A stretch of 64,000 nucleotides of DNA. Source: Indioceanicola profundi. Its GTDB lineage: Bacteria; Pseudomonadota; Alphaproteobacteria; Azospirillales; Azospirillaceae. The position numbers were made by a program, and so were the translations under genes. This document shows, one piece after another, positions 41,073-52,535 of the stretch; position 1 is the first letter of the stretch, and each line of letters starts with the position of its first letter. Under the pieces are notes generated by a model that was given only the letters and a program-made list of their open reading frames with translations, was not told the DNA's origin and searched no databases. The stretch is from positions 1 through 64,000 of the forward strand of contig NZ_CP030127.1 of the NCBI RefSeq assembly GCF_003568845.1, written 5' to 3'.

Positions 41073-43622
41073 TCAGTCCAGCAACCTCTCCCAGTCCTGT
41101 CGGATATATGTTTCGCCGCCCGCCCATGCAGCGCCCAGGAGGGAGCCACGCGTCGCGAGGATCTGGCCGCCATCCCGGGTCAGGGGGCGGTACAACCATG
41201 AAAGCGAGCCACGTACTGATCTGACGAGCAACTGGTCCAACGGGACAGTAATATAAAAGCCCTTGTCGAAGCGGCCTTCGCCGAATTCCTCGGGCGGGAC
41301 ATCAGTGAAAGTGGCGAAGGCACCGATGGTGATGCCGCTGTCGAACGTGCGGGAAAGCTCGAACGTAGCGCCGACGTCGCCCGCAAGGTAACGCCCCGCG
41401 CGCACACCGATATTCACGTCCAGCGGTTCGTAATAGTAGAAGCCGCTGACATGACCGGTCACGACATCGTAGTCGCGGAAGTCGAATCTCTGATCGTAAT
41501 CGCGCTGCTTGACCCAGTTCAGATCGGCGCCGATGGCCCAATTCGCGTTGATGGGGCGGTACATCAACTCGCCGCCGACACCGCCGAACATTTCCTCCAG
41601 CAGTCCGCCGTACACGCGCCCGAACAATTCAGGCGTGACGTTGAACGCGTACTCGCCCTGCAGATTGATTAGAGCTGTATCTCCTTCCCGGAGATAGGCG
41701 GCGATATCGGAGCGGACATGCGGCAGGACACTGTCCGACGGGACCCGCATCTTATCGAAGTTGTTGTAGATGTCGACGCCGACGCTTCCGGACAAGCTCA
41801 ATCCCCGACCGAACTGGACGGCGGCACCGGCACGCGCCCAAACTTGGTAGAGGAAGAAGGCTTCAGGCCGCCCAATGGACTGACGGAAACCCGGCCGAAG
41901 GGTCCAGCTGAAGGTCGGATAAACATCGTTGCGGACCGGGGCGTCGCGAAGCGTCAGGGGTGGCGGCATGATCCGCGTGTGCGACCAGATCTCTTCGACG
42001 GACCCTCTCCCGTCCAGTGTAAGCGCCCCTTCCAGGTCGCTACGCAGCAGCGACACCTCGGCCACTTCCATGCCCCGCTCGATCAGGACCAGGGAAAGCT
42101 CCTCATATTCCGGCGGAAGGAGGTTTGCGGCGACGCGGACTGCCCGACCGATTCCGCGGGCGGTTTCGCGATAGCGGTTCTGCGACATGAATATCTGGGC
42201 CTTCGGCGCCGAGAAATCGCCTGCGAACGCGAAAATGCCCTGCTGACGCAGATCCTTTGTCAGCTTTTCCCAAAGCTCGTCGCTGATCCCCGTCTGGCCG
42301 ACAGGCACTCCGATCTCCGCTTCGCCAGAGGCGGGGGATTCCGCCATCTGGTCCGGTAGAGCCGGATCCGGCCTTACTGTGATACGGAAGCGCTCATGCC
42401 CTCCAGACTGCGTCGCCACGTCAACGATGTCCAAGGTGCCGCTCGATTGTGAAAGCAGGTGGCGACCGATCGCGATGGCAGCCGCCACTTCGTCCTTCAG
42501 CGGTTCTCCAGCCAGTCCGATCCATGCACGGCTACCGTCGACCGATGCATCATGAACGAAGTAGCCATGCTGCGCAGCCACCGGTCCGGCAATGGACCGG
42601 ATCTGCACGGCATCTATCCGCGATGCCACAGCGCCGGGTACTGTACCGGACGGTTCGGCCACAAGCAGTCGACCCGGAGCCGGCAGGATAGCGGCGGGCC
42701 GCGGCTGCATCAGTGGCGCCGGCGGATCAATCTTGGGAACGCGGGAGCGCTCGTGAAAGTTTGTCGTCGCTGTGAGGCGGAACATGGCGCGATTGCCACG
42801 CTCCAAGCCAACAGCGGTGTGCAACCAGTCGAAAGGCTGGTACTCGACCGCGACATTCACCGGACTGTCGACATCGAAGCGGTTGCCCAGCGGCTCGAAC
42901 TGATAGCTGTTCGGATCGTATTCGGCCTTCAGGGTGAGACCATCGATCGGCATTTTATAGGAGATGCCGCCGAAGAAGGCAGCCTGTCGGCCAGTGAAGA
43001 AGTCGAGTTCGACCGTTCCGCCGCCGGGGGTGAATGCTTGGCGCTGATCGAACCGGCTGCCGAAAATTCTGAACGGGTTGCTTACATGGTTCCGCGTTGA
43101 CAGGTTACCCCATCCCATGCCGAAGGACAGGTCGATGTCACCGAAACGCTTGTTCGCCACGACATATTCCGACGCGAACAGCCCTGTTCCGCCAATATCA
43201 CGCGCACCGATTGCGATTTGCGGCAGGTTGAGGCTTTCCTGGACGAGGCGGATTTTCAGGTCAACGCCACGATCTTTGAAGCTCTGATTTCCGCTGAATG
43301 TTGGAAAAGGACTGTACAGCCGATTGCGGATATCGGTGTAGCGGAACGTTCCTTCCAGCCAGGGGAAGGGCTGGAAGGTCAGGTAGTAGCGGAGATAAGG
43401 CCAGACCAGGGAACTACCGGCGAAGAAGTCGCCGTCACGCCCGGTCCGGGCAGTCGGCGTCTGAATCAGTCCGACCCCGCCGAAGTCGTTGACCAGAACC
43501 GGCGCCCCAACCTCTTCGGCTGCCACGGCAGCCTGGGCGGAAAGTGCGATTACGGCGGAGGCGGTGGCCAGGAGCCCCCGCCGAGCCTTTAATCCGCCCA
43601 GCCGAAACATCTTGGGAGCCAT
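41073..43622 (-). CDS. YjbH-like outer-membrane polysaccharide-export protein
   Basis: The 849-residue protein has a signal peptide (about residues 1-34) followed by the YjbH start NDFGGVGLIQTPTARTGRDGDF and a long series of alternating beta strands with aromatic ends (WPYLRYYLTFQPFPWLEGTFRYTD), as expected of a barrel. A middle region (about residues 340-560) of mixed alpha/beta is followed by a second barrel-like part ending in PLTRDGGQILATRG. YjbH and GfcD of E. coli belong to exopolysaccharide and capsule operons. Its ATG overlaps the stop of the multi-SLBB protein (ATGA), so the two are coupled and probably work together in export. Confidence 0.85.
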   Translation of the reverse strand: MAPKMFRLGGLKARRGLLATASAVIALSAQAAVAAEEVGAPVLVNDFGGVGLIQTPTARTGRDGDFFAGSSLVWPYLRYYLTFQPFPWLEGTFRYTDIRNRLYSPFPTFSGNQSFKDRGVDLKIRLVQESLNLPQIAIGARDIGGTGLFASEYVVANKRFGDIDLSFGMGWGNLSTRNHVSNPFRIFGSRFDQRQAFTPGGGTVELDFFTGRQAAFFGGISYKMPIDGLTLKAEYDPNSYQFEPLGNRFDVDSPVNVAVEYQPFDWLHTAVGLERGNRAMFRLTATTNFHERSRVPKIDPPAPLMQPRPAAILPAPGRLLVAEPSGTVPGAVASRIDAVQIRSIAGPVAAQHGYFVHDASVDGSRAWIGLAGEPLKDEVAAAIAIGRHLLSQSSGTLDIVDVATQSGGHERFRITVRPDPALPDQMAESPASGEAEIGVPVGQTGISDELWEKLTKDLRQQGIFAFAGDFSAPKAQIFMSQNRYRETARGIGRAVRVAANLLPPEYEELSLVLIERGMEVAEVSLLRSDLEGALTLDGRGSVEEIWSHTRIMPPPLTLRDAPVRNDVYPTFSWTLRPGFRQSIGRPEAFFLYQVWARAGAAVQFGRGLSLSGSVGVDIYNNFDKMRVPSDSVLPHVRSDIAAYLREGDTALINLQGEYAFNVTPELFGRVYGGLLEEMFGGVGGELMYRPINANWAIGADLNWVKQRDYDQRFDFRDYDVVTGHVSGFYYYEPLDVNIGVRAGRYLAGDVGATFELSRTFDSGITIGAFATFTDVPPEEFGEGRFDKGFYITVPLDQLLVRSVRGSLSWLYRPLTRDGGQILATRGSLLGAAWAGGETYIRQDWERLLD

Positions 43623-46519
43623 CAGTTGTTATTGATCACTGCCAGCGAGGCGGCAGCCAGCGCGATGTCACTCACGATGCTGACGATATCCCGGGTGGTA
43701 TTAAGGAAGCTGAACGGGCTGACGTCTTGGGGAACCACGATGGTGGAGCCAGGCGGAATGAGCACCGACCGTTCAAACCATGCCCCCAACTGCAGCGGCT
43801 GCGACTCGCCGTTCGGGAAGATGATGAACGCGTTGCTCCTGTCAGCCTGATCCGATGGACCTCCCGCGAGCTTCAGGTAGTCGGTCGCCTTCTGGCCCGA
43901 ACGGAACATCACAGCGCCTGGATTCAACACAGCTCCGCTGATGGTGACATGGCTGGGCCGCTTCGGAACCGTCAGGCGGTCACCCGCTTGCAAGATGATA
44001 TCGGCTTCAGGACGGGCGGCCAGCACAACAGGATCGGCCTCGACCACCAGCCGACCAACGGCAGGCTGCGTACGAAGGCGCTGAACCAATGTCTGGAAGA
44101 ACGGCATCGCCGCCGTGATCGAGGCGGCTGTGCTGCCTGAAGTCGCGATCATCGCAGGCAACCCGACCTCGATCTCCTGGGCAACGCGTCGGAAGCCCTC
44201 CTCTTCCGTAAGGCGCACGCTCTCGCGGGTGAAGACGGCGCCATAGGCGTAGGCCTGGGTCGTCAGACCGCCGGCGCGCTGAATCAAATCCGACAGTCGC
44301 TCGCCGCGCCTGATCTCATACCGCCCCGGAAGGGCGACCTCACCTGCCAACTCGACAAAACCACGCTCACGCTCGGAGATGCGCGCGCCCACCCGAACCG
44401 ACTCTCCGGGACCGATCGTCACGGCGGCAGTCTGGTCCACTGCATATCCGCTACGGCGCTGACCCTTCACGTCCATCAGTTCGATGTTGGTCAAGTCGGC
44501 ACTGACAGATAAACCACCCGCGGCCTGAAGAAGATTGTTGAGGTCCGTCCCGGGGGTCACCGGATAAACGCCTGGAACCCGTGCTTCGCCCTGGACTGAG
44601 ACGGCGTATTCAAGAAGGAATGGCAAAAGGTCTGGATGTTGGTCGAAAATCGTCGGACAGGGTTGGACGTTGGCCAATTCCCGCTCGCTGGCAAGACCAG
44701 GCAGGGTCGTCGTTTCACGCTCGCCGGAAAGATCAGGTAGGGCTATCGCATTGCGCCGTCGGGACATGGTCTGGAAGACGACGCTTGAGGCGAAGCGCCC
44801 GCCGGACAGAGCATTGACTTCAGCCAAGGCGCGAAGACCCTCGCACGCGAAGTCGGTCCGAATCGGCATGCCATCCTCAATACTGATCAGGCCGCTTGGC
44901 TGGGCCAGAGAGGCACCGGACCGTTGCGCCCCAGGCTTACGCTGTGTTCCCTCCGACAGGCCCGTAGAGTTTCCCCTTCCAACTTGGTCGGGCGAAACAG
45001 AAGGGTTCGCCTGGATTGTCTGGATACGCGTCCTCTGCTCCGCTGCAGCCACATCGACGCTTGTTGGCGTAACGCCGTTCAGAACAGCCTGCACGTCGGC
45101 CGACGATAGGTAACGAATGTCATTGTGGCTGAAGACCACCAGCGTGTCCCGAGGATGCAGTTGGACATCGATCTCACCGCGGTAGACGCGATTGAGGTCG
45201 ACGGCGGACTTCCGGGTCTGGCGCGTCACCGGATCTTCGGAAATCAGGACCGCCAGTGGGAGATAGGGATTTGACTGCAGGAAGTCCGGGGAGCGAAGCA
45301 ACGTTGACAGGCTCGGATAGCTAGCGACCGACCGCTCGCCCTCGATTTCTACATTGCCTAGGGTCGAAAGTGCGGAAGGTTCCTGAGCTACAACGAGAAT
45401 GTCGCCTGCCTTGACGGCTGCATTCTGGTCCGGGAGAAGCAGAGGGCGGTTGCGGCCAGCCTGGTCGAGCCTGAAGGCCTTAACCTGATTGCCAACGGTG
45501 CGGATGGGACCGCCGGCAATCTTCATCGCCTCAGCCAGAGTTATCTCATCGGTGCCGGGGGGCAGTTCGAACACGCCGCCACGCACGACATCGCCGGTCA
45601 CAGCCATTGTTTGCCCGATGGTATTGACGATGATCTGATCGCCGTCCTGAAGGCGCACGTCGCCAAGCGGTCGCGCGTTGATCAGAAGATCGTAAAGATC
45701 GACCCGTATCCGCTGTCCATTGCGAATGATCGAGATATTGCGGAGCGTTCCACTCGGAAGAATGCCGCGCGCCCGGTGAAGCGCCTCCATCAGAGACGAG
45801 AAACTCGTCAACCGGATCAGGCCAGGATCTCTGACCTCGCCGCCGACAATAACGCTGATACTCCGGATCGACCCGATGGATGCAAAAACATCCGTCCCCA
45901 CATAGGCCGAGGCAACGCGAGCCCGCAAGTCAGCCTCGAAATCACCGAAGGAGCGGCCCGCAGCGGGGATCGGCGGCATATCTTCAAGCAGAACGCGGCC
46001 TTCCCGGTCAACCCGGACCGGGGTCGATCGGTTCACCTGCCCGCGCAGTGTGATGATGAGTTCATCCCCGATGCCAAGGACATAATCCGCTGGAACAGCG
46101 CCGTTCACAAGCAGATTGCGGTCCTGGAGGTCGGAACCGGTTGGAATTGCGGAACCCGTGAAGGAATAGCCGAACTGCCGGACTTCCATGCCGATCCGTG
46201 CGGTGTAGTCGCGTTCGATGGAAGACAGCTCGATCCGCGAGTTAGCAGCATCCCAGACCTCCTGCTCAGAAGCATTATCCTGCTGCTCACTGGGATGCAA
46301 ATTCCGGCGGGCATTGTCCAAGGCGTTCTGGTCTGTTCGTCCAACCTGTTGGAGCTGGCTTCTCAGCACGTCGGGGATCGCGTTGAGATCCATGTTCCCC
46401 GTTGGAAGCGTTACCGTCTGAGCCGCCGCCGGGCCAACGCTGACAGCCAGGAGAACGCATGCTATACGAACCCCGGCAGCCGTCTGAACAAGCGCGGCTG
46501 GACGACGGATAATCGGCAT
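43622..46519 (-). CDS. Large polysaccharide export protein with multiple SLBB domains (Wza/GfcE-like)
   Basis: I prefer the ATG at 46519 because a GGGGAT ribosome-binding site precedes it; this gives 965 residues, far longer than Wza (about 380). A signal peptide (about residues 1-34) has no lipobox Cys. A Poly_export domain (about residues 170-260, with YVLGIGDELIITLRGQVN) is followed by several SLBB-type repeats, for example GGEVRDPGLIRLTSFSSLMEALHRAGG-like blocks near 290, 385, 700, 780 and 890. The end is an amphipathic helix (about residues 940-965). It probably forms the periplasmic and outer-membrane conduit with YjbH and YjbF, and the extra repeats may replace YjbG/GfcC. Confidence 0.85.
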   Translation of the reverse strand: MPIIRRPAALVQTAAGVRIACVLLAVSVGPAAAQTVTLPTGNMDLNAIPDVLRSQLQQVGRTDQNALDNARRNLHPSEQQDNASEQEVWDAANSRIELSSIERDYTARIGMEVRQFGYSFTGSAIPTGSDLQDRNLLVNGAVPADYVLGIGDELIITLRGQVNRSTPVRVDREGRVLLEDMPPIPAAGRSFGDFEADLRARVASAYVGTDVFASIGSIRSISVIVGGEVRDPGLIRLTSFSSLMEALHRARGILPSGTLRNISIIRNGQRIRVDLYDLLINARPLGDVRLQDGDQIIVNTIGQTMAVTGDVVRGGVFELPPGTDEITLAEAMKIAGGPIRTVGNQVKAFRLDQAGRNRPLLLPDQNAAVKAGDILVVAQEPSALSTLGNVEIEGERSVASYPSLSTLLRSPDFLQSNPYLPLAVLISEDPVTRQTRKSAVDLNRVYRGEIDVQLHPRDTLVVFSHNDIRYLSSADVQAVLNGVTPTSVDVAAAEQRTRIQTIQANPSVSPDQVGRGNSTGLSEGTQRKPGAQRSGASLAQPSGLISIEDGMPIRTDFACEGLRALAEVNALSGGRFASSVVFQTMSRRRNAIALPDLSGERETTTLPGLASERELANVQPCPTIFDQHPDLLPFLLEYAVSVQGEARVPGVYPVTPGTDLNNLLQAAGGLSVSADLTNIELMDVKGQRRSGYAVDQTAAVTIGPGESVRVGARISERERGFVELAGEVALPGRYEIRRGERLSDLIQRAGGLTTQAYAYGAVFTRESVRLTEEEGFRRVAQEIEVGLPAMIATSGSTAASITAAMPFFQTLVQRLRTQPAVGRLVVEADPVVLAARPEADIILQAGDRLTVPKRPSHVTISGAVLNPGAVMFRSGQKATDYLKLAGGPSDQADRSNAFIIFPNGESQPLQLGAWFERSVLIPPGSTIVVPQDVSPFSFLNTTRDIVSIVSDIALAAASLAVINNN

Positions 46520-46529
46520 CAAAATCCCC

Positions 46530-47210
46530 ATGATTGAAAACTCACACCTACGCAGACCAATTGCACGTGGGCGCGCCGCCGTGCTGTGCCTGGTGACTTT
46601 GGCACTGTCCGGATGCGGACTGGTTAACACCGAATCGCCCTTCTGGGCAACGGTTGCCGCGATCCGTGGCGGCAGCGACACCAGCCCGCCTGTGGACCGA
46701 GCACATGTGGACAATCTGCCCTATGCATCCATGCTCGCGTGGTTCGACGATACGAAGCCATCGTTCATCGTACTTGGTCAGGTTCAGAACGGGCGTCTTT
46801 TCTGGTATTCGGCAGGTCAGCAGGTCATCGTAACCAGAGGGCCGTATGTGATTCAGACCGCCGGGCTTGGTCGAGACCTGACCGCTGTACAATTCACTAA
46901 GGGCAGTGTGGAAAGCCCGCTCAATCTGATTGGGCAGGAAAGACAGCGGAGCCTCGATGCTCGAGGCGAAGGGCGGTTCGCCTGGGAGTTGCGGTGCACC
47001 TACAGCAGCGCTGGCCGGGAGAACGTAGTTATTCTCGAGCGGCCAATGGAACTGTCGAAGGTGCGGGAAACCTGCCAGCAAACCGAGGGGAAGCCGATCG
47101 AGAACACCTACTGGGGAGATCCCCAGACAGGACTCATCTGGAAGTCGCAGCAGGTTCTCCTCCCCGGAATGGCGCCGCTGAATATTGAAATTCTGAAGCC
47201 CTTCGGCTGA
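46530..47210 (+). CDS. YjbF/GfcB-like lipoprotein
   Basis: The 226-residue protein has a lipoprotein signal with the lipobox LALSGC (Cys about residue 29) and then a mostly beta domain with MLAWFDDTKPSFIVLGQVQ, ending in the family-like PLNIEILKPFG. YjbF and GfcB lipoproteins accompany YjbH in exopolysaccharide and group 4 capsule operons. Its ATG at 46530 is only 10 bases from that of the divergent export gene (46519), so promoters must lie inside the neighbouring coding sequence. A later GTG start that shortens the signal is possible, because no good ribosome-binding site precedes 46530. Confidence 0.75.
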   Translation: MIENSHLRRPIARGRAAVLCLVTLALSGCGLVNTESPFWATVAAIRGGSDTSPPVDRAHVDNLPYASMLAWFDDTKPSFIVLGQVQNGRLFWYSAGQQVIVTRGPYVIQTAGLGRDLTAVQFTKGSVESPLNLIGQERQRSLDARGEGRFAWELRCTYSSAGRENVVILERPMELSKVRETCQQTEGKPIENTYWGDPQTGLIWKSQQVLLPGMAPLNIEILKPFG

Positions 47211-47320
47211 TGCGACGAAGCATGCGTTTATCCGGTCCTAAGCTATAAATCCAGCCTGTGGCCTCGGATAAATCGGGGTACGCGGGCGTGGTCGGCATTT
47301 CCATCGACCAACCACAAAAA

Positions 47321-47346
47321 AGGGCCGGCGATCCGCCGGCCCTTTC
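47321..47346. terminator. Bidirectional intrinsic terminator between yjbF-like and yjbE-like genes
   Basis: AGGGCCGGCG, loop ATC, CGCCGGCCCT makes a perfect 10-bp stem at 47321-47343, with an A-run on the left and TTTC on the right. It sits between two convergent genes, so it can end both transcripts. Confidence 0.75.
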
Positions 47347-47367
47347 GAACTCAATCGAGTATTACGG

Positions 47368-47679
47368 TCAGCGGGTGCTGGTAGCCGTGCTGGTGCTGGT
47401 GCTGGTGCTGGTGCCCGGCGTAGTGGGCGGCGTTACAGGCCCCACATCGTCGTCGCTGTCACCACCAGCGGCAATGGCGGCGGCAATACCGGCCGCAAGC
47501 GCGACGCCGCCGACAACGGCAACGGTGGAAAGGGTGCCAGCGCCGAGCCCGGCAGCAGAACCGCTTCCAGCCGGCTGGCCGGTTCCGGCGCCAGCACCGG
47601 CGCCCTGCGCGGTCTGGGCAGACGCCATGGCAGGCGCAATGGCCAGCGCGAGCGCAACAAACAGGGTCGTGGATTTCAT
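47368..47679 (-). CDS. Small secreted YjbE/GfcA-like protein (paralogue B)
   Basis: The ATG at 47679 follows GAAGGAAAATC and gives 103 residues. The layout is the same as the proteins at 5385 and 54764: signal peptide (cleavage near ASAQ), Gly-rich linker with TGQPAGSGSAAG, hydrophobic Ala/Gly segment (about residues 50-70), GGDSDDD acidic patch and a tail TSTSTSTATSTR. The tail is encoded by a hexamer repeat of (GCTGGT) on the plus strand. It lies beside the yjbF-like gene in the export module, as in the yjbEFGH and gfcABCD operons, but is convergent to it rather than co-linear. Confidence 0.65.
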   Translation of the reverse strand: MKSTTLFVALALAIAPAMASAQTAQGAGAGAGTGQPAGSGSAAGLGAGTLSTVAVVGGVALAAGIAAAIAAGGDSDDDVGPVTPPTTPGTSTSTSTSTATSTR

Positions 47680-48061
47680 TGCGATTTTCCTTCGTAACGT
47701 CCAATCAGGGTAGCGTTGCCGCAGGTGGACAACGGCGCATCTCAGCCAAGCCCTAGCGCGCCCGTCAGGGTTAGGCCCTCCATCTATACTACCACCTGCA
47801 CAAGGAGCAAAGCTCTCTTTTATTGCAGATGTTTGGGTCTTCTCACGGTGTGGCCGTGAGGTGACTCCGTCCAGCGATGTCACTGTTCCACCCCATGCCT
47901 ACTCTGTACCCGCGGCTTGCTGCTGCCGGTACAGCCGAAAGGGTTGCGGATGGGGTGATTCAGTGACATGCGGGGTGGTGATGCTCAGTGGTGGCGTTGG
48001 AATGGTGACACAGGCAAATATCGGATCCAGAAGCATTTTTCTGGGTTGGAATACCTGTGCT

Positions 48062-48092
48062 AGCTGTGTCTAAGAGACAGATCGGAGGGGCA
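48062..48092. other. Tn5 mosaic-end-like sequence followed by adapter-like bases
   Basis: AGCTGTGTCTAAGAGACAG at 48062-48080 differs from the 19-base Tn5/Nextera mosaic end at two positions. It runs into ATCGGAGGGGCA, which resembles the start of an Illumina adapter with two differences. It could be a transposon-end relic or library adapter trapped in the assembly. Confidence 0.4.
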
Positions 48093-48876
48093 GTAGGATG
48101 GGGGGCCTATTCAGGACTCCCTGCCTTGCTGCTGTGCAGGGCAATGCGCTGAAAACACGCCAGCAGGAATGTCAACGTTCCCCCTCCGGCTCGATCCGAC
48201 AGTGAGGAACAGCCCCGTGGCGTTGAGCCAAGTTTAATCGGACAAGCGGCTGGCACTCATATTCATATAGTGCCGATTCGGAATCGGTCTGGTGAGCTGG
48301 CTTGGCATCGTGAGGTCCGAATCACAACGGTCAGGTCCAATCACAATAATGTCCATCGGACGGTGCCCCCGGAGTCAGGGAGCCTTTGCCCTGAATGTGA
48401 GCAGACCGATTCGCACCAGCGGAAAGCTGTCGAGTCGAGAGGGGTGGAACAGGGACATGCGACCGTCACCCAATCGCCTTCCGCGAAGCTTGTCGAGGAC
48501 CTGTTCGGGGTTTCGGTGACATGCGGTCAGGGGAGAGCGTTCCACAGTGCGGGACAGGCCCTATGAAGCAAAATGCACCATAAACTATTGGAATCACGCG
48601 AAGTTCTTGAGTGTGTTCGGTTCGGTCCAATCCCTGCGCGGACTTAGACTCACGCGTAGAGTCCGGCCTGAATCCCTGTTAGGAGCAGTTAGAGAATTAA
48701 CGGGTTTTACCGTTATAGGTCCGAAAAGACGTTCTAAATCAGTAGCTTGAAGCGATTTGCGTTTCCAATCCAACGCGCTTTCGTCCTTGATCCAACGAGG
48801 CAGCGTGCCTGAAACCCCGAACTGAGGTGGCTGATGGAACGGATCGCTGTCCCTGATCCAACAAGGCAGGAATCTA

Positions 48877-49010
48877 CGTCGCCGTTCCAACGATTCTGGC
48901 GGAGTCCCTCGAAGAACCGCTGAATCCGGGCCCTCGGTCGAGCGACGTCACCGTTCCAACGAAATCCGGTCGCTGTTCCCCCAATGCCATGTCACCGTTC
49001 CCCCGAATCC
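48877..49010 (+). repeat. Cluster of directly repeated iteron-like motifs
   Basis: Four same-strand copies: ACGTCGCCGTTCCAACGA (48877), ACGTCACCGTTCCAACGAA (48945), GGTCGCTGTTCCCCCAATG (48969) and ATGTCACCGTTCCCCCGAA (48989). The shared core is GTC-CTGTTCC or GTCACCGTTCC. An inverted copy lies at 49152-49170. Confidence 0.6.
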
Positions 49011-49334
49011 TCGGCCTGGAATGCCGCTTGCCGCCGTAATCCGACCCCCAAATCTTCGTTGTTACGGTGACATCGGCACAATCGCTTGTGGACTCACCTG
49101 GGAAGCTCCCGCCTAATGCCCTTCAGCACAGCGTCGGCGGAATGCTCTGGTCGTTGGAACGGTGACGTTCGCGGCCCTGCTCCTTCTGGCTCTGTGCGGA
49201 CTGCTGATCCGGCCCAGCTGCGAGGCACCATCCCTGGCTGCTTCTGGGCCGTATCGACCCGGCGTTCCGACCATGCCGTCACGCATGGTCCAGGCGTCGG
49301 CGCCATGTGGTCGGGACTTCGTTGGATGGGTGAC

Positions 49335-50234
49335 ATGAGCAGAGCCGTGGAACAGGCGCATCAGTTATCGCTCCTCGACAGCCCCCTGATCGGGAGCGTG
49401 AAGAATGAGCGCTCGATCATGGTCTACAACTTCTTCGCTCTGACGAAGGAGAAGCGGGTGGACCCGATCCGCTATAGCGATGGCAAGGTCGCGATCGAGG
49501 TGAAGGGCACGGATGCCGGCATCGCCACGATCTACGATAAGGAATTCCTGATCTATGTCGCCTCGCTGATGGTCGACAAGATGAACCGGGGGGAGCCGGT
49601 CAGTCAGGTGTTCAGCTTCTCCGGCCATGATTTCTTCCGGGTCTGCCGGGTCTCGGCCGGCGGAAAGAGCTATGACCGGATATCCGGGGCGCTGGAGCGT
49701 CTGCAGGGTACGCAGATCAAGACCAACATCGAGACCGGAGGCGAGGGCACGGACGAGTGGTTCAGCTGGCTGAAGTCCGCCAAGGCCGAGTACCGGAAGA
49801 ACGCCAAAGGTGAGCGGGTCCTGAAGCGCATTACGGTGGAGCTGTGCGACTGGCTTTACCGTGCCATCCTGAAGGACAACAGGATGCTGACCTATGACCC
49901 GGCATATTTCGATCTGCCCCCCATGGAAAAGCGGCTCTATGAGATGGCCCGCGCCCATTGCGGCAACCAGCCGGGCTTCAAAATCAATCTGGAGAAGCTG
50001 CGCCTGCGCGTGGGGGCCGAAACGGATCTGCGGCAGTTCCGCTACAAGCTGGCCAAGATCGCCGAGAAGAAGAACCCGCTGCCGGAATACGGCTTCAAGC
50101 TGGTCAACGATCCTAACAGCGATGGAGCGGTGAAGGGGCAGCGCACCGTGCTGAAGAAGATCATGGTGGTCTTCTGGCGTTTGGACCGCTGGCGGGAATA
50201 CGATGTCGGTCGTTTTGAGATGCTGGAGGACTGA
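49335..50234 (+). CDS. Plasmid-type replication initiator (RPA/RepA family)
   Basis: I place the start at the ATG at 49335 (299 residues); an ATG three codons earlier (49326) is also possible, and the longer upstream frame overlaps iteron-like DNA. The sequence SLIGSVKNERSIMVYNFFALTK, then a helix-rich body with VSAGGKSYDRISGALERLQGTQIKTN and ITVELCDWLYRAILKDNRML, matches the replication initiator protein A family found on many alphaproteobacterial plasmids and chromids. These are winged-helix proteins that bind iterons at the origin. The iteron-rich region directly upstream supports this. No parA, parB or repB gene is next to it; downstream is a polysaccharide epimerase gene on the other strand. 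Confidence 0.85.
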   Translation: MSRAVEQAHQLSLLDSPLIGSVKNERSIMVYNFFALTKEKRVDPIRYSDGKVAIEVKGTDAGIATIYDKEFLIYVASLMVDKMNRGEPVSQVFSFSGHDFFRVCRVSAGGKSYDRISGALERLQGTQIKTNIETGGEGTDEWFSWLKSAKAEYRKNAKGERVLKRITVELCDWLYRAILKDNRMLTYDPAYFDLPPMEKRLYEMARAHCGNQPGFKINLEKLRLRVGAETDLRQFRYKLAKIAEKKNPLPEYGFKLVNDPNSDGAVKGQRTVLKKIMVVFWRLDRWREYDVGRFEMLED

Positions 50235-50261
50235 GGGGCGGGTCTGCGCTGTCGTAGCAGC

Positions 50262-51284
50262 TCAGACCTTGTAGTGGTCGCGGTACCAGCGCACGAACCG
50301 TTCGACGCCGAGCTCGATCGGCGTCGAGGGTGAAAAGCCGACATCGCGGGCAAGATCGCTGATATCGGCATAGGTGGCGGGAACGTCGCCTAGCTGCATC
50401 GGAAGCATCACCTTCTTCGCCTTGCGTCCGACGCAGCGCTCAATCAATTCAATCAGATGCATGAGTTCCACCGGCTGGTTATTGCCGATGTTGTAGATGC
50501 GGTAAGGCGCGCTGCTGGCGCCAGGATCGGGACGGCCGCCTGACCAGTCCGGATCGGGCTGCGCTACATGGTCCGCCACCCGCACCACACCTTCCGTGAT
50601 GTCGTCGATATAGGTGAAATCGCGCCGCATGCGGCCTTCGTTGAACACCTGGATCGGCTCACCTTCCAGAATAGCCTTGGTGAACAGGAACATCGCCATG
50701 TCCGGCCGGCCCCAGGGGCCATATACCGTGAAGAAGCGGAGCCCCGTCGTCGGTAGGCGGAAGATGTGGCTGTAGCTGTGTGCCATCAGTTCGTTCGCCT
50801 TCTTACTGGCGGCGTACAGGCTGACGGGGTGGTCGACATTGTGGTGGACGGAGAAGGGCATCTCCGTATTGGCACCGTAGACGGAGCTGGATGAAGCATA
50901 GACGAGATGCTGGACCGCGTGATGGCGGCAGCCCTCGAGAATGTTCAGGAAGCCGGTGAGGTTGGCATCCGCATAGGCATGGGGATTGATGAGGGAATAG
51001 CGAACGCCGGCCTGTGCAGCCAGATGGATCACCTTCCCTGGGCGGACCCTCCCGAACAGGGCGGCCATGCTCTCACGGTCGGCCAGGTCCACGCGCTGGA
51101 ACTCGAAGCCGTCCTGCCCCTCCAGCAGGGCGAGCCGGGCCTGCTTCAGCGCCACGCTGTAATAGTCATTGATATTGTCGATGCCGACGACCTGGCAGCC
51201 CCGATCAAGAAGCCGTTGGGCGACATGGTAACCGATAAAGCCTGCAACGCCGGTGACGAGTACGGGACTGGATTGGAGAGGCAT
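50262..51284 (-). CDS. UDP-glucuronate 4-epimerase-like SDR
   Basis: The ATG at 51284 gives 340 residues. Motifs are [15 protein letters not shown] (about residues 11-25), [15 protein letters not shown] and the Tyr-Lys pair in YAASKKANE, with [20 protein letters not shown] as in the CapI/LspL group that interconverts UDP-glucuronate and UDP-galacturonate. No UDP-glucose dehydrogenase gene is visible in the window, so the precursor would have to come from elsewhere. It is the last gene of a minus-strand run with gmhB, gmhA, rmlA2 and rmlB2, separated from gmhB by about 155 bases. Confidence 0.85.
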
Positions 51285-51438
51285 CGCACATTTCCGATTT
51301 CCGCGGCAGGGAACGGCCGTGTAGAGGATCGGAGCCACTATTAGCGGCTAGCCCCCGGTGCGTCGATGGTGTTTCTGGCAGTGCAGCGTGCCGGACGGCT
51401 AGTCCGGACGCTGCCAGCAACTCCCGAAAGTGGTGGCA

Positions 51439-51963
51439 TCAAACGCCGGTCCCAAGCAGCATTCGAACGGTCGTGTCGAGGTTTCCGCCCCTGAAGAGAT
51501 GTCCGGGAATGCCGGCGGCCTCCGCCGCCGCGAGGTCGGACGGCTTATCGCCAATCAGGAAACTTCGTCCAAGGTCCACCGGCCAGCGCCGCATCAGGTC
51601 GAGCAGCATTCCAGGCTTCGGCTTGCGGCAGGAGCAGTCCAAACGATAGCGGGACAGAGCAGCTTCTGGGTGGTGCGGGCAGTAGCGCCAGTCATCCACC
51701 CGTGCCTCCTGGCTGGCGAGTTCAGTCTCCATCCAGCGGTGCAGGGAAACGACGTCCGTTTCCGGAAAGTAACCCCGCCCGACGCCGGACTGGTTGGTGA
51801 CGACGAAGACGAAAACGCCGGCCCCGTTCAGGCGCCGAACCGCTTCCGCGGCACCGGGAATCCAGGCGACCTGGTCCGGCCGGTGCGGATAGCCCGTGTC
51901 CTGTATCAGCACGCCGTCCCGGTCCAGGAAAGCCGCGGGCTTTAGGACCGTACCGCCGCTCAT
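51439..51963 (-). CDS. gmhB: D-glycero-manno-heptose 1,7-bisphosphate phosphatase
   Basis: The 174-residue HAD phosphatase has the nucleophile motif [15 protein letters not shown] (about residues 12-26), [11 protein letters not shown] (about residue 55), the zinc ligands in CPHHPEA and [10 protein letters not shown], and [18 protein letters not shown] (about residue 135). It removes the 7-phosphate in heptose nucleotide synthesis. The GmhA gene overlaps it by four bases (51960-51963). The kinase/nucleotidyltransferase (HldE or HddA/HddC) and the epimerase are not visible here, so the final nucleotide heptose is unknown. Confidence 0.92.
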
Positions 51964-52535
51964 GCGAGGTCCGCTTCGACCAGTTCGCAGAGCATGTGCC
52001 CGACGGCGATGTGCATTTCCTGAATGCGCGGCGTGTGGGCGGAGGGAACGCGCAGGCAGACATCGCAGAGGTCCGCCATCCGCCCGCCGGAAGAGCCGGT
52101 CAATCCGATCGTAACAATGCCGATCTCACGCGCCGCCTGCACCGCCTGCAGAATATTGGGGCTGTTCCCGCTGGTGGAGATGGTGACCAGCACGTCGCCC
52201 GGACGGCCCAACCCCTGGACCTGCCGGGAGAATACCTCGTCGAACCCAAAGTCATTGGCTATGGCGGTCAGGGCCGAGCTATCGGTAGTCAGCGCTATCG
52301 CTGGGAGGGCCCTGCGGTTCACGAGATAGCGGCCCAGAAGCTCGGCCGCCAGATGCTGCGCGTCGGCAGCCGAACCGCCGTTGCCGCAAAACATGATCTT
52401 GTCGCCAGCGCGGATGGCGGCTGACATGCGGGCGGCCAGATCGGCAACAAGGCCCGCCTGTTCGGCAAGCGCTGTGAAATTCTCTGCCGATTGGAGCAGG
52501 CTCCGCCGGATGAGGTCTGTGGGTGTGTTCGGCAT
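51960..52535 (-). CDS. gmhA: Sedoheptulose-7-phosphate isomerase
   Basis: The 191-residue SIS-domain protein has [27 protein letters not shown] (about residues 43-69), [20 protein letters not shown] and [16 protein letters not shown], followed by the conserved [17 protein letters not shown] end with His and Glu catalytic residues. It makes D-glycero-D-manno-heptose-7-phosphate. It is translationally coupled to gmhB, and the rmlA2 pseudogene ends 30 bases upstream. The pair supplies heptose for LPS core or for a surface polymer. Confidence 0.94.

Follow-up and report, generated by a model that had tools for sequence, protein, structure and literature searches.

A probable iteron-type replication origin with an RPA-family initiator gene on the 1.184-Mb chromid of Indioceanicola profundi, and a conserved counterpart in the single chromosome of Rhodospirillum centenum

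The stretch of DNA analysed here (the window) comprises bases 1–64,000 of contig C2 of Indioceanicola profundi, a contig of 1,184,037 bp in a genome that also includes contigs C1 (3.44 Mb), C3 (454 kb) and C4 (296 kb). A preliminary description had placed an RPA-family replication initiator gene in it, preceded by about 1.4 kb of non-coding DNA and surrounded by envelope genes, and each of these elements was recovered. In a Pfam hmmscan, the initiator matched PF10134 with an E-value of 2.6e-58 and 197.7 bits (cut-off 27) over positions 1–226 of 228, which assigns it to the RPA family; its match to PF01051 (Rep3_N) was weaker (E = 2.3e-6). The program-made open reading frame begins at a TTG codon at 49086, but the ATG at 49335 was adopted as the start, as the alignments with three orthologues begin there. 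Upstream of it, in a stretch of about 1.45 kb, no open reading frame of at least 100 codons was found within 47884–49085. The genes on the left encode homologues of YjbH and YjbF and an SLBB/Poly_export/GfcC protein, and those on the right sugar-nucleotide-type enzymes. The export protein (43622–46714, 1030 aa) combines a Poly_export domain, several SLBB domains and a C-terminal GfcC domain, and resembles a fused export/GfcC protein beside yjbH and yjbF homologues. The features of the locus are as follows.

41073–46714, minus strand: YjbH (PF06082) and the 1030-aa export protein, neighbours of the origin region
46530–47210, plus strand: YjbF/GfcB-family capsule lipoprotein (PF11102, E = 2.7e-33), a neighbour outside the origin region
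47878–49335, unstranded: iteron region holding 16 CGTCACCGTTCCAACGA-like profile sites, some on each strand, recognised by 11-mer counts against shuffles, by the profile and by 22-bp phasing
48689–48748, unstranded: AT-rich 60 bp (63% AT) bordering the first core iteron on its left, a candidate DNA-unwinding element
48760–49006, plus strand: direct iterons of the core, for the most part phased at 22 bp, at 48760, 48782, 48804 and 48848; at 48877; and at 48946, 48968 and 48990
49056–49167, minus strand: two inverted iterons, 49056–49072 and 49151–49167
49319–49335, minus strand: iteron (profile site) over the initiator start codon, a candidate autoregulatory operator
49335–50231, plus strand, with the stop codon through 50234: RPA-family replication initiator, 299 aa from the ATG, recognised by its PF10134 match, orthologues and predicted fold
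50262–52535, minus strand: NAD-dependent epimerase, HAD hydrolase and SIS-domain protein (sugar-nucleotide-type enzymes), right neighbours

An AlphaFold2 model of the initiator (mean pLDDT 78) was closest in fold to domains 2–3 of RctB, the initiator for chromosome 2 of Vibrio cholerae (Z 18.1, rmsd 4.0, 248 residues), the next matches being the mini-F protein RepE and the R6K protein pi (Z of about 11–12). The structural alignments with RepE and pi showed 12–15% identity, and the initiator sequence returned no match among PDB chains at E-values up to 1. The protein is thus predicted to adopt the two-winged-helix Rep fold of RctB, RepE and pi, which the model matched over most of its length.

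The repeats upstream of the gene were examined with patterns of three lengths. Counting both strands, the 11-mer GTCACCGTTCC was present in 47860–49400 in three exact copies, in seven with at most one mismatch and in 11 with at most two, in keeping with the at least nine copies in both orientations of the preliminary description. In dinucleotide shuffles of the same stretch (n = 200) the corresponding means were 0.06 for at most one mismatch (maximum 1) and 0.67 for at most two (maximum 3). The enrichment is local, since the remainder of the window held no exact copy, two copies when one mismatch was allowed and 36 when two were allowed. A 17-bp profile identified 15 sites in the 1500 bp before the initiator ATG (mean 0.23 and maximum 2 in 30 shuffles); as this profile was trained partly on the window's own iteron stretch, together with four other loci described below (those of G002, G032 and G009 and the 165-kb locus of C4), the 11-mer count is the cleaner test. 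The 16-mer GTCRCCGTTCCAACGA, allowing two mismatches, occurred at 16 places in the whole 5.37-Mb genome, against seven for a reversed control pattern: seven in the array described here, two at 166 kb on C4, where a related RPA origin lies, five elsewhere on C2 and two on C1. In the 590 kb of C2 that were sampled, 37 profile sites scored above 14 bits; 14 of these lay within 1.6 kb at the array, and no other 1.5-kb stretch held three or more. A second iteron cluster near the end of C2 (1174–1182 kb) was considered and rejected, only three scattered sites being present there, and an RNA-regulated origin was discarded likewise, no Rfam match reaching the gathering score in 46500–50400.

The iteron copies of the window have diverged from one another. 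Four same-strand spacings are of exactly 22 bp, and in the self-similarity of the core the strongest lag was 22 (z 3.1), with lag 44 at z 3.0; 22 bp corresponds to about two turns of DNA. The inverted iteron at 49056–49072 lies inside a segment (about 49050–49093) that is conserved in four genera and ends in CTTGTGGAC, a putatively DnaA-box-like sequence. At the iteron over the start codon, GGGTGACATG was retained in all four orthologous loci aligned, and the AT-rich block sits in a region of 58% GC. Repeats beside a rep gene, in numbers above chance and in helical phase, are what is expected of an iteron origin, and the AT-rich block agrees with this by its composition. That the repeats are instead only operator sites, regulating RPA or the capsule genes, would account for the site overlapping the RPA start codon, but we consider it highly improbable: fifteen more sites extend across 1.4 kb, several of them helically phased and with the AT-rich block adjoining, as in iteron origins, and the same core precedes a further RPA gene of I. 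profundi, at 165 kb on C4. The RctB/RepE/pi-like fold, the phased iterons and the AT-rich block together therefore point to iteron-type initiation.

Comparison with relatives placed both gene and repeats in a wider context. An RPA match was found in 26 of 59 genomes, namely I. profundi itself, 24 of the 34 genomes of the same family and one of the 24 others. Orthologues with 92–93% identity to the initiator are present in R. centenum SW (G002), in Oleisolibacter albus NAU-10 (G032) and in a metagenome bin (G009), and the window and these three loci have 10–16 profile sites upstream of RPA (shuffle means 0.23–0.53). Exact 22-bp same-strand spacings numbered six in R. centenum, six in O. albus, three in the metagenome bin and four at the 165-kb locus of C4. 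Lag 22 ranked top in R. centenum, as in the window, third in O. albus (where 44 was top) and a close second in the bin. The AT maximum was placed similarly in R. centenum (52%), O. albus (68%), the bin (57%) and the C4 locus (62%), and less so at a further RPA locus, G032_C7. The RPA protein encoded at 165 kb on C4 is 70% identical to the C2 initiator and its gene is accompanied by 14 profile sites. Because 22 of the 24 other RPA loci scanned have 0–4 profile sites (G032_C7 has nine, and one other seven), the iteron motif is tied mainly to the initiator group of the window. The RPA tree was used only loosely, 10 of its 23 inner branches being drawn open. The RPA (PF10134) replicons of the family of Azospirillum share this initiator family, several of them on contigs of 0.4–2.2 Mb, and relatives occur in many sphingomonads. 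Nitrospirillum-like RPA loci differ from C2 in motif and in having parAB adjacent, whereas the parAB of C2 lies 44 kb off. At two such loci, L255 (9672–10766) and L254, the RPA–parA intergenic region has repeats of its own (TCCCTTGAG and neighbours), unlike those of the window.

The nature of C2 itself bears on how the locus is to be read. The only DnaA match in the genome is on C1, so that the region does not lie in the main chromosome. The 49-kb initiator is the one RPA gene of C2, and searches for four initiator families revealed no second RPA and no RepC, Rep3 or DnaA match on this contig; the genome scan with Rep3_N missed the C2 initiator itself, although hmmscan had matched Rep3_N there. 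A RepABC replicon was ruled out, no RepC (PF03428) match being found in the whole genome. Partition genes had not been seen in the preliminary description; the search elsewhere on the replicon that it advised did locate a plasmid-type pair, outside the window.

C2 94443–96243: plasmid-type ParA (AAA_31, 5.9e-55) and ParB (ParB_N 1.1e-21, ParB HTH), 44 kb from the initiator

Of the seven 16S loci detected in the genome, C2 also holds four. The locus at 520 kb is directed rightward and the three others, at 954, 1019 and 1069 kb, leftward, so that each is oriented away from about 49 kb. Four of the C2 stretches contain runs of N, located in rRNA loci or next to them. Four tRNAs were detected in 36 C2 stretches, none of them in the window, and the GC content was 65.3% for C2 (718 kb) and 67.6% for C1 (400 kb), each a partial sample. 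With a length of 1.184 Mb and four of the seven 16S loci, C2 is better called a chromid, and its replication and partition genes (RPA and ParAB) are of plasmid type. The choice between a surface-polysaccharide plasmid and a chromid left by the preliminary description thus falls to the chromid, the contig being no small plasmid. The other option it gave, an initiator derived from an integrated plasmid, fits C2 poorly, although something similar fits R. centenum, as discussed below. For Azospirillum, the literature describes chromids that bear rRNA operons and replicate by plasmid-type systems (PMC3899980, PMC3245306), and non-chromosomal replicons with repABC/parAB plasmid-type systems in published strains (PMC3899980).

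Two smaller contigs deserve mention. On C3 (454 kb), parAB genes are present at about 128–130 kb, with no RPA, RepC, Rep3 or DnaA match on the contig. C4 has two RPA genes, at 118 and 165 kb, whose upstream repeats differ, as well as a pair of ParA-type loci, and it looks as if two plasmids had fused. As the 165-kb origin of C4 shares its iteron core with the C2 origin, cross-control between them is possible.

The cumulative GC skew of C2, computed on sampled stretches, climbs between about 40 and about 654 kb and declines thereafter, and none of 300 sign-flip controls was as strongly bipolar. There are two minima, at 36–45 kb and at about 1098 kb, the latter arising because a block at about 1.10–1.13 Mb has positive skew. 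This block lies inside the negative arm and is perhaps a recent inversion or an island. The skew fit scored 6216 for an origin at 1104 kb, 5832 at 36 kb, 5656 at 49 kb and 4642 at 95 kb; a block bootstrap (500 resamples) gave a 95% interval for the origin of −136 to +44 kb with a median of −80 kb, which just misses 49 kb. The fitted terminus is at 656 kb and the midpoint opposite to it at about 64 kb, a symmetry that lends slight further support to an origin at 49 kb. The skew is therefore compatible with an origin in the initiator's part of the replicon, without pinning the site: the switch of skew that the preliminary description had proposed to look for does exist, but it is divided between two minima and the interval ends just short of the initiator.

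If the RPA locus were a relic or an integrated accessory plasmid, C2 would start elsewhere, perhaps at about 1.10 Mb, where the skew fit is slightly better, or beside parAB at 94 kb, which is not adjacent to RPA. We regard this as improbable. The contig offers no match to another initiator of the families searched, and the conservation of the gene (93% identity and a dN/dS of about 0.08 in the comparison given below) is unlike that of a relic. An origin at 95 kb fits the skew worse than one at 49 kb, and none of ten open reading frames around parAB carried an initiator domain in a Pfam scan, four of the ten having no Pfam match at all.

We conclude that the 1.184-Mb chromid C2 very probably starts replication in the segment from 47.88 to 50.23 kb, which would hold its origin together with the gene of its initiator. 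While the gene family, the repeat array with its phasing, the conservation and the replicon context were observed directly, and the fold was obtained as a prediction, a mechanism may be proposed by analogy. The RPA protein, with its two winged-helix domains, would bind the 22-bp-phased iterons, whereupon the AT-rich block at 48.69–48.75 kb would melt and RPA would help to load the host helicase. Replication would then proceed bidirectionally towards a terminus near 0.65 Mb. Initiation could be limited by autorepression, through RPA bound to the start-codon iteron, and by pairing of iteron-bound molecules, and partition of C2 would fall to the plasmid-type ParAB encoded 44 kb away.

A further comparison is provided by R. 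centenum SW, which we took genome G002 to be. Its genome paper describes a genetically amenable, plasmid-free organism with one chromosome of 4,355,548 bp, dnaA at 3,127,698, 12 rRNA genes and a GC skew without strong inflection (PMC2890560). Our searches detected no 16S locus in R. centenum, for which masked sequence may be the reason, N accounting for 17,500 bases of the stretches sampled from this genome. In our data set the genome forms one contig, 4,355,543 bp long, with a DnaA domain at 3,128,206, and two of its loci are of interest here.

3,949,930–3,950,826: RPA gene, orthologue of the C2 initiator
3,881,748–3,883,984: plasmid-type ParA and ParB (SopB-type HTH), 66 kb from RPA, in a genome reported as plasmid-free

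The R. centenum RPA is 93.3% identical to the C2 initiator over its full length (dN 0.047, dS 0.61, dN/dS about 0.08). For comparison, 83 reciprocal-best pairs drawn from the stretches sampled had a median identity of 72.8% and a best of 92.9%; these remained from 117 pairs after the removal of 34 whose dN/dS above 0.5 marked them as probably antisense ORFs. RPA is not among the 83, as the gene straddles the end of a sampled stretch at 3.95 Mb, and its values were computed separately. In the best 25 of the 83 pairs dS ranged from 0.42 to 1.03, and since the 0.61 of RPA falls within this range the gene shows no sign of recent transfer. On these comparisons its conservation is close to that of the most conserved genes in the sample, and it has apparently been inherited and kept under strong selection. 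An initial supposition that RPA exceeds DnaA in conservation was rejected: DnaA of R. centenum and I. profundi is 83.7% identical over its full length owing to one divergent stretch, with 94–100% in its C-terminal blocks and 97% by tblastn. A further group of four iteron sites lies 2.1–2.4 kb upstream of the R. centenum RPA.

The surroundings of this gene are syntenic with C2, positions 56–70 kb of C2 (of which the window covers the first part) corresponding to 3.931–3.949 Mb. More C2-like genes occur at 4.15, at 4.25 and at 0.15–0.25 Mb, the last group with genes of the C2 terminus region. C1-like blocks lie between the C2-like ones and the region has therefore been rearranged; as the C1 sample covered 12% of that contig, an absence of C1 matches in this comparison means little. 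R. centenum has no close relative of the C2 ParA (best 36–39%). Its own ParA and ParB are 78–79% and 58–62% identical, respectively, to a pair found in two Nitrospirillum-like genomes (G019 and G023), where that parAB lies about 1.1 kb from RPA, divergently, on contigs of 2.2 and 2.0 Mb that we call secondary because a chromosomal-type ParA is on another contig. RPA of the R. centenum type is only 55–57% identical to the Nitrospirillum-like RPA, compared with the 78–79% of ParA, so that the histories of RPA and parAB may differ. The cumulative skew minimum of R. centenum, in sampled stretches, falls in the RPA bin, but it counts for little because two 10-kb bins (3.90 and 3.98 Mb) dominate and the curve is nearly as low near 0.27 Mb.

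These data suggest that, in the line of R. centenum, a chromid carrying RPA and parAB merged with the main chromosome, its origin being kept under strong selection. In the simplest reading, the line of the window would have kept C2 separate, with a different parAB; the opposite direction, a fission in the window's line, may also be entertained. We put forward tentatively, as a possibility that falls short of even chances, that the R. centenum chromosome descends in part from a fused chromid whose RPA origin is still active beside DnaA and oriC, two types of origin having then coexisted over genus-level time. Integration of a separate plasmid, rather than fusion of an ancestral chromid, could also have brought the RPA module into R. 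centenum, as the interleaving of C2-like and C1-like blocks and the discordant identities of RPA and ParA to their Nitrospirillum-like counterparts would allow; we think this somewhat unlikely, given the synteny of the RPA flanks with C2 and a dS inside the range of the best 25 orthologue pairs. No proposal of a fused chromid in R. centenum stood among the matches listed for titles and abstract openings in the open-licence literature, a weak negative result.

Several known systems resemble the one proposed here. Vibrio chromosome 2 with RctB has in common with C2 the initiator fold (as predicted, Z 18.1), iterons and the status of a secondary chromosome; it belongs to another class of bacteria, and the C2 initiator lacks a sequence match to PDB chains. 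The plasmids mini-F and R6K have iterons of about 22 bp and an AT-rich block, and their RepE and pi proteins the two-winged-helix fold predicted for RPA; the C2 replicon is much larger, and the identity in structural alignments is low, as given above. An iteron origin on a chromid is of an already known kind, to which C2 most likely adds an example. As for R. centenum, fusions of a chromosome with a chromid into a single chromosome, such as we propose, are described for V. cholerae NSCV1 and NSCV2, where both origins may be active (PMC6284228), and for Cupriavidus necator KK10 (PMC8729776); they concern strains within one species, whereas R. centenum belongs to a different genus from the organism of the window.

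The proposed C2 origin is a clear-cut example of the way in which replication of a large secondary chromosome may begin, with a plasmid-type initiator of RctB-like predicted fold. Were R. centenum to fire both of its origins, it would represent a long-lived natural two-origin bacterial chromosome; were its RPA origin silent, the strong conservation of initiator and iterons would need another reason. Either way, the RPA module may explain why an origin is missing from the GC skew of R. centenum.
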